Below are positions 28,765 through 38,185 of a stretch of 64,000 nt of DNA, piece after piece. The translations under genes and the position numbers were made by a program. Source of the DNA: an uncultured Rhizobiaceae bacterium (GTDB lineage Bacteria > Pseudomonadota > Alphaproteobacteria > Rhizobiales > Rhizobiaceae); NCBI GenBank assembly GCA_951813045.1, contig CATOTF010000002.1, forward strand, positions 2,232,001-2,296,000. Direction: 5' to 3'. Position 1 is the stretch's first letter. Each line of letters begins with the position of its first letter. The notes beneath the pieces are model-generated. The model ran no database searches and was not told the DNA's origin. It saw only the letters and a list, made by a program, of their open reading frames with translations.

Positions 28765-28908
28765 TGCGAGAGTTGTGCGGTTAGCGCGAGATAAGCGCCA
28801 CAAGCATTCAAATTTTCGGTCGCATTGGTAATACCCAAGGGGTTTATTTTCATCAGGTGACCCTTTTCATTGGGTTCCTTGCATTTTCGATAAAAATTGC
28901 CGTTTATA

Positions 28909-30069
28909 CCAACGGCATTATTTTCTGACTCTGTAGGGATTCCCAAATCGAGTTTGATCTGATTCCTTGTGGCAAAGGAGATTTGCTATGGGATCATCAG
29001 TGCCACTTCGGACGGACTTTGATGCCGCCAGCCTGCGCCGGACGACCAAGGAATGCAGTGACAACCGACAGATACGCCGGCTGCTTGCGCTTGCCGCAGT
29101 CTATGACGGCATGAACCGCACGGAGGCGGCTCGGATTGGCGGGATGGATCGTCAAACGTTGCGTGACTGGGTCCATCGTTTCAATGAACTGGGTCCGGAC
29201 GGTCTGACCAATGCCAAGGGTGCAGGGCGACCGCGCCTGCTGAGTGATAAGCAGATGCAGGAACTGTCGCTGATTGTCGAAACCGGGCCGGACCGGGAAG
29301 TGGATGGCGTGGTTCGTTGGCGACGCATTGATCTGGTACGCGTTATTGAGGAACAGTTCGGTATCAAATGCTCCGAGCGGGTGATGTCGGATTATCTGGC
29401 ACAACTGGGCTTCTCCAACATCTCCGGTCGTCCACAACACCCTGAGCAGGATGGACGTGTGATCGAAGCGTTCAAAAAAACTTCCCCGACACGCTCGCAG
29501 CCCACATAGCTGATCTGCCGCAGAGAACGCCGGTGGAGATCTGGTTCCAGGACGAAGCGCGCATCGGGCAAAAGAACGGTCAGGTTCGCCTCTGGGCGAG
29601 GAAAGGAACCCGTCCCCGGCTGCCCGCCGACCAGCGCTACGACAATGCCTATCTGTTCGGTGCGATCTGCCCAAAGCGTGGCACGGGCGCGGCCTTGGTA
29701 CTGCCCAAAGCCAACACACAAGCAATGCAATTGCATCTCGATGAGATCAGCAAATACGTGACCCGCAAGGCCCATGCCGTGATCCTGATGGATCGCGCAA
29801 GTTGGCACAGCACCGGCAAACTGGTCGTACCAAAGAATATCACCATCATTCTGCTACCTTCGAAGTCACCTGAACTGAACCCGGTCGAGAACATCTGGCA
29901 ATATCTGAGGTCAAACTATCTCTCAAACCGCGTTTTCAAAGACTACACCGCCATCCTTGATGCCGCCTGCGACGCATGGAACGCGCTCATCGACACACCG
30001 AAAATCATAACGTCAATCGGAATGAGAGATTGGGCCCATGTCAGAACGGTCGAAAATTAATGCCGTTGG
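28909..30069 (+). mobile_element. IS630-type insertion sequence
   Basis: Ends are marked by ATACCAACGGCATTA (28906-28920) and its exact complement TAATGCCGTTGGTAT (30058-30072). The TA dinucleotides at 28907-28908 and 30070-30071 fit the TA target duplication of the IS630/Tc1 superfamily. Between them lie two overlapping transposase frames joined by a slippery A7. All catalytic residues are present, so the element looks intact. Confidence 0.9.
28988..30060 (+). CDS. IS630 family transposase, two frames joined by -1 frameshift
   Basis: The first frame, ATG 28988 after AAGGAG, runs to 29509 and encodes a helix-turn-helix domain (MNRTEAARIGGMDRQTLRDWVHRF) and the start of the catalytic part. 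The run of seven A at 29474-29480 (TTC AAA AAA A) lets ribosomes slip to the -1 frame, where reading continues NFPDTLAAH into 29533-30060. The second part holds the DDE triad: IWFQDEARIG, ILMDRASWH and NPVENIWQY. This two-frame arrangement with an A-rich slip site is known in several IS630 elements. Confidence 0.88.
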
Positions 30070-30196
30070 TATTACCTTACTGTTGCAATTTTGCACCAAT
30101 CTTCACTATCTCGAAATAAATATAAATTCGCTGTTGAAATTTGAATCAAGGGGGAATATCCAGCGCCTCCCGAACACAAGAAAGGAAGGGACGTCG

Positions 30197-30295
30197 ATGG
30201 ATAGAATTTCTAAGAATTCACCCGCGCGGTCTGGCACTGCCAGCGCTGTGTACGGATGCCTTTTCTTTGGTGTGCGGTTGCAAATAGCTCAATAG
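30197..30295 (+). CDS. Small ORF (32 aa) upstream of the tRNA-like pair
   Basis: ATG 30197 follows AAAGGAAGGG at ribosome-site spacing and encodes 32 residues (MDRISKNSPARSG...LQIAQ), stopping at TAG 30293-30295, inside the D-loop of the first tRNA-like sequence. I do not recognise the product. The strong ribosome site is the only support; it may be a leader peptide or chance. Confidence 0.25.
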   Translation: MDRISKNSPARSGTASAVYGCLFFGVRLQIAQ

Positions 30296-30350
30296 GTTAG
30301 AGCGTCTGATTTAGGTTCAGAAGGCCACGGGTTCGATTCCCGTTATGCAC
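30278..30350 (+). tRNA. tRNA-like sequence 1, anticodon UAG (Leu-like loop on a class I body)
   Basis: A cloverleaf can be drawn. T8-A9 (30285-30286); D stem GCTC/GAGC (30287-30290, 30300-30303) with a GG-containing loop; anticodon stem TCTGA/TCAGA with loop TTTAGGT, the anticodon TAG at 30312-30314; a 5-base variable loop; T stem ACGGG/CCCGT around TTCGATT. The acceptor stem pairs at only 5 of 7 positions (TTGCAAA with TATGCAC). No CCA is encoded. The loop equals that of bacterial tRNA-Leu(UAG), but a bacterial tRNA-Leu should have a long variable arm, which is missing. It may be a degenerate, phage-derived or specialised tRNA. Confidence 0.5.
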
Positions 30351-30423
30351 GTATGGATAGCTCATATGGTAGAGCACTAGACACTTAATCTAGCTGTAAG
30401 GGGTTCGATTCCCTTTCCAAACA
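30351..30423 (+). tRNA. tRNA-like sequence 2, anticodon CUU (Lys-like) with A33
   Basis: It directly abuts the first tRNA-like sequence, sharing no spacer. The acceptor stem GTATGGA/TCCAAAC pairs at 6 of 7 positions. The D stem is GCTC/GAGC with loop ATATGGTA, the anticodon stem CTAGA/TCTAG with loop CACTTAA, and the T arm AGGGG-TTCGATT-CCCTT. Reading position 34-36 gives CTT (30384-30386), the lysine anticodon, but position 33 is A where U is nearly universal. No CCA follows (A73 then CCC). The fold is good; function as a normal tRNA is doubtful. Confidence 0.5.
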
Positions 30424-30426
30424 CCC

Positions 30427-30455
30427 GCCTGAAAAGGCTCACCCTGTAAAGGTGA
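30427..30455 (+). ncRNA. Paired hairpins with a Tyr-like anticodon loop
   Basis: GCCT-GAAA-AGGC (30427-30438) is followed at once by TCACC-CTGTAAA-GGTGA (30439-30455). The second loop, CTGTAAA, is the same as the anticodon loop of tRNA-Tyr (anticodon GTA). No T-arm follows, so this is not a complete tRNA; it may be the remnant of a third one or part of a structured leader. Confidence 0.3.
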
Positions 30456-30903
30456 ATTTAAAATGGCTCAGGCAGCGGCCTGCCCTGTCTCAACATCAAA
30501 CCTTTGCTTAGGCAAAGTGCTGACTACGATACAGGGACACCCTTCCCTGCCGATTAACGGTAACGTTTTTCAAGCTTTCAACCCGCCCTTCCCGGTTTTC
30601 GAACGGGGGAGTTCCGGTTTCAGGCCCTGAAAAACCTCTCCCCGAAATCCGCAAGGCGCGGTGCCGCCGCTGACCTGGGTCCCAATTTCACGCTTCTCTA
30701 AAGTGAGAACGCGAAACCTGCTTTCGCGATTGGCGTGGATGCTGGATACCTCAAACCCAAACGAAACAGAAAGGAAACGCCGTGACCTGCTGCGTGTCGC
30801 GCTTAATCGCCTCGCGAATGAGTGAAACAGACCCGCACCACAAGAGAGTTCAAGCGCGTTCAACTGAAACTGAAAAACCGAAACGCGCTTTTGCCACGTC
30901 GCA
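30456..30903. other. Structured non-coding region upstream of the slipin gene
   Basis: No firm gene. It contains hairpins CTTTGC-TTAG-GCAAAG (30502-30517) and CGCGAAA-CCTGC-TTTCGCG (30710-30728), and a possible short frame from GTG 30782 (after AAAGGAAA) to TGA 30920-30922 that would overlap an internal ATG of the slipin gene by four bases. It could be a long 5' untranslated region; no riboswitch family is recognised. Confidence 0.35.
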
Positions 30904-32058
30904 ATGGCGAATAAGAAGATGACAATATTTGATAAAATTTTGGGGCGTACACGTGTCCAGATCAGCGAAGACGAACGGGCCATCCACCTTTGGAAAGGTC
31001 AAGTTCAGGGCATCTTGCGCTCAGGTGAGCACATGCTGTCCAGCCGCAAAGACAGGTTGACGCTGGAAACCCACAATCTCGCGCGGGCCGAAGTTGGCAC
31101 CGCCTATGAGAAAGCCATCTTCGAAAAACTCCCTGACGCAGCGCAGGAGCATTTCACAGTGGTTCAGACCGGGCGAACCGAAGTCGCTATTGTTGAACGG
31201 GACGGCGCACTCTATGCGGTTATTGGTCCTGATCGTCGTATCGTCCTTTGGAAAGATGCGGGGCCCTGGACAACTACCGTCATAGACGTCGCAGATTCTC
31301 CCCAGGTCGATGCCCGTCTTTTGCGTCGCATGGGAATGACCGGTAAGATCTTGCATGCAACGGTGATCGCCGTTGGTGATGGTCAGACCGCCATGTTGTT
31401 CTTCGATGGTGAATACCAGCGTCGTCTTGACGCCGGTGTCCACGGGTTTTGGAGCGCCGGTCGGGCGATTACTCACAAGCTGATTGATCTAAAACGTCAA
31501 ACAATCGACGTGACGGGTCAGGAAGTTTTAACCCACGACCGGGTGACCATTCGGGTGAACATTGCAGCGCAGTATCAGGTCACTGATCCTGTCAAAGCGG
31601 TGACGGAAGTTAAAGATTTTGCAGACGCTCTTTACCGGGCATTGCAGGTTGCCTTCCGTAAAACCCTGGGTGCCATGACGCTGGATCAGGTTTTGGAGCA
31701 GAAAGTATCCGTCGATACCGAAGCTGCAAAAACTGTAACAGACGAAATGGCAGCCATCGGCATCAAAGTGGGCGAAATCGCGTTGAAAGACGTAATCCTG
31801 CCCGGCGAGATGCGGGAAATCCTCAACCAGGTGGTCTCCGCACAAAAAGAAGCGGAAGCCAACGTCATCCGTCGTCGTGAGGAAACGAACGCAACCCGTT
31901 CTTTGCTCAACACCGCAAAGGTGATGGCGGATAACCCTGTGATGTTGCGGTTGAAAGAGCTTGAAGCTCTTGAAACCATCGCAGATCGGGTTGAGCGGAT
32001 CACCGTCCACTCCGGAACGGAAGGTCTATTGAACGACCTGGTAAAACTGCGGGATTAA
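30904..32058 (+). CDS. Slipin (SPFH/stomatin family) protein
   Basis: A 384-residue SPFH protein of the slipin class. RRLDAGVHGFWSAGRAITHKLIDLKRQTIDVTGQEVLTHDRVTIRVNIAAQYQVTDP is the SPFH core. DEMAAIGIKVGEIALKDVILPGEMREILNQVVSAQKEAEANVIRRREETNATRSLLNTAKVMADNPVMLRL is the coiled-coil tail used for oligomerisation. The N-terminal 180 residues form an extra domain seen in bacterial slipin-2 types. There is no obvious transmembrane helix. ATG 30904 or ATG 30919 (MTIFDKIL) may be the start; the latter has GAATAAGAAG before it. No NfeD partner lies nearby. Confidence 0.85.
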   Translation: MANKKMTIFDKILGRTRVQISEDERAIHLWKGQVQGILRSGEHMLSSRKDRLTLETHNLARAEVGTAYEKAIFEKLPDAAQEHFTVVQTGRTEVAIVERDGALYAVIGPDRRIVLWKDAGPWTTTVIDVADSPQVDARLLRRMGMTGKILHATVIAVGDGQTAMLFFDGEYQRRLDAGVHGFWSAGRAITHKLIDLKRQTIDVTGQEVLTHDRVTIRVNIAAQYQVTDPVKAVTEVKDFADALYRALQVAFRKTLGAMTLDQVLEQKVSVDTEAAKTVTDEMAAIGIKVGEIALKDVILPGEMREILNQVVSAQKEAEANVIRRREETNATRSLLNTAKVMADNPVMLRLKELEALETIADRVERITVHSGTEGLLNDLVKLRD

Positions 32059-37216: not shown

Positions 37217-37375
37217 CGAGCAAAAACTTCGAATAAACAAAACATCTCAATCCTTCACTTGACTAATCATGTGCAGATCGTCAATTTGCGCTTAAGGGGT
37301 TAGCGAACGCCCCGTGAGGCTCAGGCCCAAGTATCGCATCCACTAACGCAATAAATTCGCGAACAAGGATGCATT

Positions 37376-38185
37376 ATGCCTTCATTTAATCAAATCACCC
37401 CTGCCCAACTATCTCGTCTAATCGGCACTCCCGATTGCCCGACACTTATCGACGTTTGCATCGATGAAGACTTCAACGAAACGCCAAATTTAATACCCAC
37501 CTCTTTTCGCCATTCGCATACAACGATCACAAACTTGGCTCCAGCACTTGTTGGTAAACGTGTTGTCATCGTCTGCCATAAAGGCAAGAAATTAAGCGAA
37601 GGAACTGCTGCTCTTTTACGTTGCAATGGTGTGGAAGCGGAGGGGCTTAAAGGGGGAATTTTAGCATGGCGGGATGCTGGGCTACCGACAGTACCTGCCG
37701 ACAAAATTCCGGAGCGGAATAAACAGGGGCAAACCATCTGGGTAACGCGTCACAGGCCAAAGATCGACCGTATTGCCTGCCCCTGGTTGATCCGCAGGTT
37801 TATCGATCCCCTCGCTCAGTTTCTGTTTGTTGCACCAGCAGAAGTTTTGGACGTGGCCGATCGATTCAACGCGACGCCGTTCGACGTTGAAAATGTGTAT
37901 TGGAGTCATCGTGACGAAAGGTGCACATTCGACACGATGGTCGAGGAATGGAACTTGGCGGGCGAAGCGATAGACCGCCTGGCAACAATCGTACGTGGTG
38001 CAGACACAAATCGCCTTGATCTAGCGCCCGAAGCAGCAGGACTGATGGCGGCATCCCTCGGCCTGTCCAGAATGTACCGCGATGACCTCGCGCAACTTGA
38101 AGCAGGCATACAATTATACGATGCGTTTTTTCGCTGGGCGCGAGATGCCCATGAAGAAACACATGACTGGACACCAGCACAATGA
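37376..38185 (+). CDS. chrB: ChrB-type chromate resistance protein with N-terminal rhodanese-like domain
   Basis: A 269-residue protein. Residues 1-110 form a rhodanese-like domain (LIDVCIDEDFNETPNLIP, VVIVCHKGKKLSEGTAALL, with C71-H-K-G-K as the active loop). Residues 125-265 are the ChrB C-terminal domain: WVTRHRPKIDRIACPWLIRRFIDPLAQFLFV and SHRDERCTFDTMVEEWNL, with histidine, cysteine and arginine signatures. ChrB proteins regulate or assist chromate export. The stop overlaps chrA by four bases (ATGA), giving a chrBA operon. The rhodanese fusion replaces the usual N-terminal ChrB domain. Confidence 0.88.
   Translation: MPSFNQITPAQLSRLIGTPDCPTLIDVCIDEDFNETPNLIPTSFRHSHTTITNLAPALVGKRVVIVCHKGKKLSEGTAALLRCNGVEAEGLKGGILAWRDAGLPTVPADKIPERNKQGQTIWVTRHRPKIDRIACPWLIRRFIDPLAQFLFVAPAEVLDVADRFNATPFDVENVYWSHRDERCTFDTMVEEWNLAGEAIDRLATIVRGADTNRLDLAPEAAGLMAASLGLSRMYRDDLAQLEAGIQLYDAFFRWARDAHEETHDWTPAQ

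Follow-up and report, generated by a model that had tools for sequence, protein, structure and literature searches.

A conserved structured RNA with tandem tRNA-like modules in the 5' leader of an alphaproteobacterial slipin gene

Introduction

What is the role of two tRNA-like sequences that lie side by side, each defective as a tRNA gene, in the genome of an uncultured bacterium of the Rhizobiaceae? They are found in a 64,000-nucleotide stretch of this genome (GenBank assembly GCA_951813045.1, contig CATOTF010000002.1, positions 2,232,001 to 2,296,000 of the forward strand), called here the window, whose coordinates are used below. The original prediction, made by a model from the sequence, described two adjoining cloverleaves beside an IS630 element and proposed that they are either degenerate phage-type tRNAs or tRNA-like RNAs with another role, transcribed as one unit. 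We report that the pair is part of a conserved structured RNA, extending from about 30222 to 30680, in the 5' leader of a gene encoding a slipin, a protein of the SPFH (Band_7) family. The elements of this locus are:

30222..30255, plus strand: 5' hairpin of the leader RNA, covarying in 20 leaders
30278..30351, plus strand: first (distal) tRNA-like module (ARAGORN; RF00005), conserved in position
30351..30425, plus strand: second (proximal) tRNA-like module (ARAGORN; RF00005, 53.4 bits; R1 model)
30465..30478, plus strand: 5' arm of the long-range helix (14 bp) closing the downstream domain (helix 11)
30667..30680, plus strand: 3' arm of the 14-bp long-range helix (helix 11, 20 leaders)
30919..32058, plus strand: slipin/SPFH (Band_7) gene, 379 amino acids (Pfam Band_7, E value 1.2e-28)

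Results

The two modules of the window fold as tRNAs and lack features of functional tRNAs

ARAGORN identified 30278-30351 as tRNA-Leu(tag) and 30351-30425 as tRNA-Lys(ctt), which confirms the two adjoining cloverleaves, with base 30351 common to both calls. The first module scored 60.8 bits with the Rfam tRNA model RF00005 (gathering threshold 29), and the second 53.4 bits in a search of the whole genome, or 45.3 bits without its first base. With R1, a covariance model of 39 ARAGORN-positive modules hand-picked from the window and 21 loci, all of which were also searched with it, the second module scored 77.1 bits, the window sequence being part of this model's own alignment. At the gathering level, RF00005 was the only Rfam family found around the modules in the window and in eight relatives. 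These scores, together with the conservation described below, exclude a chance origin of the cloverleaves; low covariance scores and a lack of conservation had been proposed as the marks of decayed fragments, and the opposite was observed.

The first module, 74 nucleotides (nt) long, carries the loop TTTAGGT of tRNA-Leu(UAG) on a body with a short variable arm, and its acceptor is mismatched at 1-72 (U.C) and 6-67 (A.A). The second carries the loop CACTTAA, hence A33 and the anticodon CUU, and has a single acceptor mismatch, 3-70 (A.A). CCA is encoded in neither module, the 3' end of the second being A-CCC. The oddities noted in the original prediction are all present. RF00005 matched 40 sequences in the window's genome, both modules included, and the remaining 38 tRNAs all have U33, purine 37 and an encoded CCA. 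A single Lys tRNA (UUU) was present among these 38. The genome also carries a normal tRNA-Leu(UAG) of 85 nt. Its loop is the same as in the first module, which, at 74 nt and with a short arm, does not have the class II form of tRNA-Leu. The pair has a tRNA-like fold by ARAGORN, RF00005 and covariation, and departs from functional tRNAs by A33 in the second module, mismatched acceptors in both and an unencoded CCA, which could in principle be added post-transcriptionally. A standard tRNA finder (ARAGORN) thus labels two probable non-tRNAs as Leu and Lys tRNAs. The two modules are likely to be transcribed as one unit.

tRNA-like modules are conserved upstream of slipin genes

Each of the 109 non-redundant slipin loci for which over 500 nt of upstream sequence was available contained at least one tRNA-like module within 800 nt upstream of the gene (106 by motif extraction, and L180, L184 and L189 by R1). 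Two modules were extracted from 76 loci, and the 106 loci with extracted modules include 44 of the Mesorhizobium type. The named collection provided 80 slipin loci, the best 80 of 100 relatives, and two of the nine matches in the plasmid collection were examined; six rows were dropped as duplicates from the same genome (L088, L124, L127, L132, L134 and L177) and one (L178) because it had only 73 nt upstream. ARAGORN found modules upstream of slipin in 91 of 96 loci, every one on the slipin strand, and R1 recovered the five misses. In the control, no module was found upstream of 14 distant Band_7 paralogues (E value 0.01).

A DNA search of 297 genomes of the same family returned ordinary tRNA genes and, in addition, loci with a tRNA-like stretch ahead of a slipin gene. 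In the same genomes, a protein search detected a full-length slipin orthologue (at least 52% identity) in 16, the window's genome included, and 23 genomes of a 398-genome sample of the phylum encoded slipin at an E value of 1e-40 or better. Degenerate phage-type tRNAs are not supported by these results, as all 109 loci retain modules whose stems covary (see below), and one scan of viral contigs, in which the query was the slipin profile rather than the RNA, detected no relative. A viral origin was rejected on this single scan and on a viral fold list made up of generic Band-7 proteins. The conservation of the pair within one structured slipin-gene leader agrees with the other proposal, that of tRNA-like RNAs with another role.

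Two variants of the locus were observed outside the Alphaproteobacteria. In the rtc-type locus L192, ARAGORN detected three adjoining tRNA-like modules, from about -381 to -167 before slipin. In the E. coli/Citrobacter slipin-RlaP loci L230 (4804-4818) and L231 (4763-4777), the leader retains only a T-arm-like hairpin, GGGTTCGATTCCC, which follows a TGGCACGC motif identified by eye.

The leader RNA is structured and covaries

In an alignment of 39 modules, 94.4% of the cells were paired and 212 cells carried double changes, compared with 72.9 +/- 9.6 after shuffling; control structures slid along the alignment paired in 35-47%. The analysis was extended to 20 complete leaders, kept from 26 (L070, L074, L075, L118, L150 and L154 were left out), and to a 69-pair structure composed of the 5' hairpin, both cloverleaves, the 14-bp long-range helix and an inner helix. 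It was observed that 96.8% of the cells were paired, with 126 double changes versus 31.9 +/- 5.2 in the shuffles, which, as for the modules, ignore relatedness. The two helices of the 5' hairpin (helices 1 and 2) were paired in 99.3% and 96.3% of the cells, with four pairs showing double changes, and the long-range helix 11 in 96.4%, with six such pairs. The weakest helix was the acceptor of the proximal (second) module, paired in 87.4% of the cells with double changes at one pair. In conclusion, the pair belongs to a conserved structured RNA in the slipin-gene leader.

This RNA was not a known Rfam leader: the candidates speF (15.2 bits for a threshold of 37) and YrlA (24.1 for 69) both scored below threshold and were rejected. 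The speF-leader match lies at 30687-30830, between the closing helix and slipin, and is probably due to chance.

In Alphaproteobacteria the two modules share out the features of a tRNA

Module features were counted in the 72 two-module alphaproteobacterial loci, 41 of the Mesorhizobium type and 31 others. The first module had a complete 7-bp acceptor in 51 loci and an encoded CCA in 61; its anticodon loop was of 7 nt in 20 loci and of 5-6 nt in 52. Neither a complete acceptor nor CCA was found in any of the 72 second modules, 69 of which have a 7-nt loop, with purine 37 in 69/69 and U33 in 58/69. The short first loop is strongest in Mesorhizobium-type loci, since all 41 have 5-6 nt there; among the 31 other loci, it was short in 11, and U33 was present in 8 of the 20 seven-nt loops. 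In 47 of 76 pairs, base 74 of the first module is also the first base of the second, and the CCA of the first overlaps the start of the acceptor strand of the second, which largely accounts for the open acceptor of the latter. These results show that the alphaproteobacterial pair divides a tRNA: the first module tends to carry the full acceptor and CCA, and the second to keep a genuine anticodon arm but neither of these. The pair in the window is a diverged instance of this division.

The anticodon of the second module changes rapidly in Mesorhizobium-type loci

The last module before slipin has a 7-nt loop in 101 of 106 loci, with purine 37 in all 101 and U33 in 82. Forty-one of these 101 loops matched a native tRNA loop of the window's genome, which served as the reference for every organism. 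On a tree of the slipin coding sequences of the 44 Mesorhizobium-type loci, the anticodon columns 34, 35 and 36 of the second module required 14, 13 and 9 parsimony steps respectively, and ten stem columns required none; the mean was 2.1 for the leader (median 1) and 3.1 for third codon positions. Eighteen changes of the triplet were counted on the tree, where shuffled labels gave 23.1 on average and 18 at the least, and they involved only seven states, GTT, CAT, TAG, GAG, TGT, ACG and TAT (column shuffles: mean 14.4, minimum 11). Diversifying selection on the second-module anticodon is suggested, not proved, because other leader columns are equally fast.

The modelled slipin fold matches those of SPFH proteins and the major vault protein

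The slipin gene lies downstream of the modules on the same strand. Its likely start, as judged from aligned relatives, is the ATG at 30919, in an open reading frame (ORF) that opens at 30904. The AlphaFold2 model (mean predicted local distance difference test score 84.2, predicted template modelling score 0.59) comprises three beta-rich segments, an SPFH domain and a long helix. The three segments are weakly similar to each other (hhalign E values 1.7e-5, 2.6e-6 and 6.2e-5; probabilities 79, 89 and 65%). No strong hydrophobic segment was found in the window slipin, with a best 19-residue mean of 1.34; 1.6 was reached by 2 of 41 aligned members.

Comparison of the model with the PDB matched stomatin, prohibitin, HflK and others, plus the major vault protein (MVP), the latter through its SPFH-like shoulder fold, which is common to many SPFH proteins. 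Among the 50 PDB rows listed, only those of MVP, which carries repeat domains N-terminal of its shoulder, had matches starting before residue 127. There was no Pfam Vault match on the slipin with filters that discard weak ones, and no match in the defence library. MVP has been linked by BLAST to prokaryotic band 7 proteins, according to a review (PMC7916137).

RNA-repair genes neighbour slipin outside the Alphaproteobacteria

All 14 non-alphaproteobacterial genomes encode RtcB no more than about 4 kb from slipin, and eight of them encode RtcR at a distance of up to about 6 kb. In this, the relatives resemble the rtcBA operon of E. coli and Salmonella (RtcR, sigma-54), from which the alphaproteobacterial loci differ: RtcR was linked in 0 of 22 alphaproteobacterial genomes, and a sigma-54-like pattern preceded slipin in 5 of 96 alphaproteobacterial loci, compared with 5 of 9 rtc-type loci. 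Similarly, RtcB was absent from the slipin contig in all 21 alphaproteobacterial genomes searched, the window's included, and was found nowhere in 16 of them. RtcR was detected in a single alphaproteobacterial genome, G561, of the Mesorhizobium type, on a contig other than that of slipin; RtcB and RtcR matches lie there at 481605-486327 of contig 39, apart from the slipin/tRNA-like locus. Of 36 genomes, 11 were found to encode RlaP, an RNA-repair nucleotidyltransferase; six of those outside the class carry it on the slipin contig and four alphaproteobacterial ones elsewhere. The gene order is rtcR-slipin-RlaP in one Citrobacter record and slipin-RlaP in one E. coli record. As none of RtcB, RtcR and RlaP was found in the window's genome, the window locus is homologous to the RNA-repair-linked kind but lies outside that repair context.

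Published studies describe related associations: the Salmonella rtc operon is activated by tRNA fragments (PMC7790460); PaFlo8, an SPFH protein of P. aeruginosa likened to the window slipin by family, is embedded in an rtc locus (PMC13086221); in Anabaena, a slipin, likened to that of the window by name, and rtcB are both repressed by TrcR, and this repression is lifted by elongation-blocking antibiotics (PMC10272220).

Neighbouring elements and promoter motifs

The IS630 neighbour noted in the original prediction is genuine:

28906..30072, plus strand: IS630-type insertion element with inverted repeats and helix-turn-helix (HTH) and DDE_3 domains

Its inverted repeats of 24 nt occupy 28906-28929 and 30049-30072, and its transposase is split over two ORFs in different frames, 28967-29509 and 29533-30060, which carry the HTH and DDE_3 domains. 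A role of the element in the pair was rejected, as it ends about 205 nt upstream of the first module; it looks like an incidental neighbour. Further downstream, a chrB-a RNA (RF03078, 62.6 bits) at 37291-37378 ends at the start of an ORF that begins at 37376, presumably a chromate-resistance locus, judging by the name.

A candidate sigma-54 promoter was rejected in the window, where the GG-N10-GC spacing falls inside the 5' hairpin, and no sigma-70-type promoter was found there. In Mesorhizobium (L079 and relatives), a nearly invariant promoter-like motif, CTTGCGACA...CTATAG, precedes the leader (by eye).

Discussion

In 2016, Burroughs and Aravind reportedly described RNA-repair systems in which SPFH/Band-7 proteins occur with a 'novel tRNA-like molecule'. 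Such systems reportedly share with the window an SPFH/Band-7 gene immediately preceded by a tRNA-like RNA on its own strand, and with the relatives outside the class an rtcB, rtcR or RlaP context. The present locus differs by the lack of detectable RtcB, RtcR and RlaP in its genome, by the tandem feature-split pair and by the fast anticodon turnover. The Y RNA YrlA of rsr-yrlBA-rtcBA operons is likewise a tRNA-mimic non-coding RNA beside RNA-repair genes (PMC7790460); our leader differs in its neighbour, an SPFH gene, and in its score, below the gathering threshold of RF02553. The vault particle, made of MVP and vault RNA, is also among the closest known systems. In the open-licence literature searched, we found no recognisable description of a slipin- or SPFH-linked tRNA-like RNA, and none of the RtcB-less alphaproteobacterial form, the feature split or the anticodon turnover; the last three are apparently new here.

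We favour, with a probability of about 0.45, a tRNA-mimic leader RNA that acts with slipin when tRNAs are damaged. The observations behind this proposal are the conservation, structure and slipin linkage of the RNA, the proximity of rtcB outside the class, the feature split in Alphaproteobacteria and the anticodon turnover in Mesorhizobium-type loci. The leader RNA would mimic tRNA with no use in decoding; the authentic-looking anticodon loop of the second module would be recognised as bait by anticodon-cutting nucleases, and slipin would be a cytosolic scaffold that binds the leader RNA. Cleavage of the bait would spare real tRNAs, or would report damage through altered slipin expression, which cleavage could affect because the bait would lie within the slipin transcript. 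Where an rtc operon is present, the cleaved RNA would be rejoined by RtcB; in Alphaproteobacteria, where the RNA and slipin persist without linked RtcB, the retained function would be sensing or sequestration. A more elaborate form of the proposal, which we consider distinctly unlikely, is a vault-like ribonucleoprotein in which an MVP-like SPFH protein would hold its own RNA, with a tRNA split into acceptor/CCA and anticodon halves, the anticodon half passing through a series of authentic anticodon loops in an arms race with anticodon nucleases and the whole acting in Alphaproteobacteria as a decoy or sensor unlinked to RNA ligase.

Several observations weigh against the nuclease-bait proposal. 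The window pair is itself atypical, the first module having a native 7-nt Leu loop and no CCA and the second lacking U33. Two enterobacterial loci retain only a T-arm-like hairpin, and L183 and L187 have ordinary tRNA genes nearby, so that their module could be an ordinary tRNA. Outside the class, the four loci with two modules showed no such split: there, the first module has CCA in 0 of 4 and the acceptor of the second averages 6.0 of 7 pairs. When distinct loops are counted, 8 of 43 are exactly native for a shuffle mean of 3.9, and 106 of 5000 shuffles were as high, which is a modest enrichment over column shuffles. The anticodon columns are among the fastest of the leader, yet they are equalled by its other saturated columns, so that a relaxed constraint on the triplet is possible. 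Finally, in E. coli, tRNA fragments bound the CARF domain of RtcR, not full-length RtcR, and were insufficient for RtcR activation in vitro (PMC9650030).

The leader might instead be chiefly a structural ligand that nucleates a slipin oligomer, or is stored by one, much as a Y RNA serves Rsr/Ro60, with an exposed and little constrained anticodon loop. We regard such a scaffold as unlikely though deserving of real weight: a free loop would hardly keep purine 37 in 101 of 101 cases, U33 in most and a few recurring triplets. The first module of the two-module alphaproteobacterial loci, often with a full acceptor and an encoded CCA, resembles a substrate of RNase P, RNase Z and the CCA enzyme, and the pair could be a processing signal that recruits them to remove the leader and to trim or stabilise the slipin mRNA; this is improbable, as it leaves unexplained the conserved anticodon arm of the second module, the turnover of its triplet and the structured domain that precedes the gene.

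Sense tRNAs or suppressors that supplement decoding would agree with the scores above the Rfam gathering threshold and with the many second-module loops identical to native ones. We hold this to be very improbable, given the absence of U33 from 19 of 101 last modules, the lack of a complete acceptor or CCA in all alphaproteobacterial second modules, the prevalence of 5-6-nt first loops and the normal tRNA-Leu(UAG) already present in the window's genome. The mismatches, missing CCA and A33 of the window copy, with an IS630 element nearby, could evoke tRNA genes left behind by a mobile element and now in decay. This barely conceivable origin was rejected in view of the conservation across 109 loci and the covariation in 20-39 aligned sequences.

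The leader RNA described here is a defined candidate partner, open to ready testing, for a putative scaffold protein that is associated with RNA repair. Moreover, Mesorhizobium species offer natural anticodon swaps on one body, which makes the idea of bacterial decoy or sensor tRNAs directed at anticodon nucleases directly testable.
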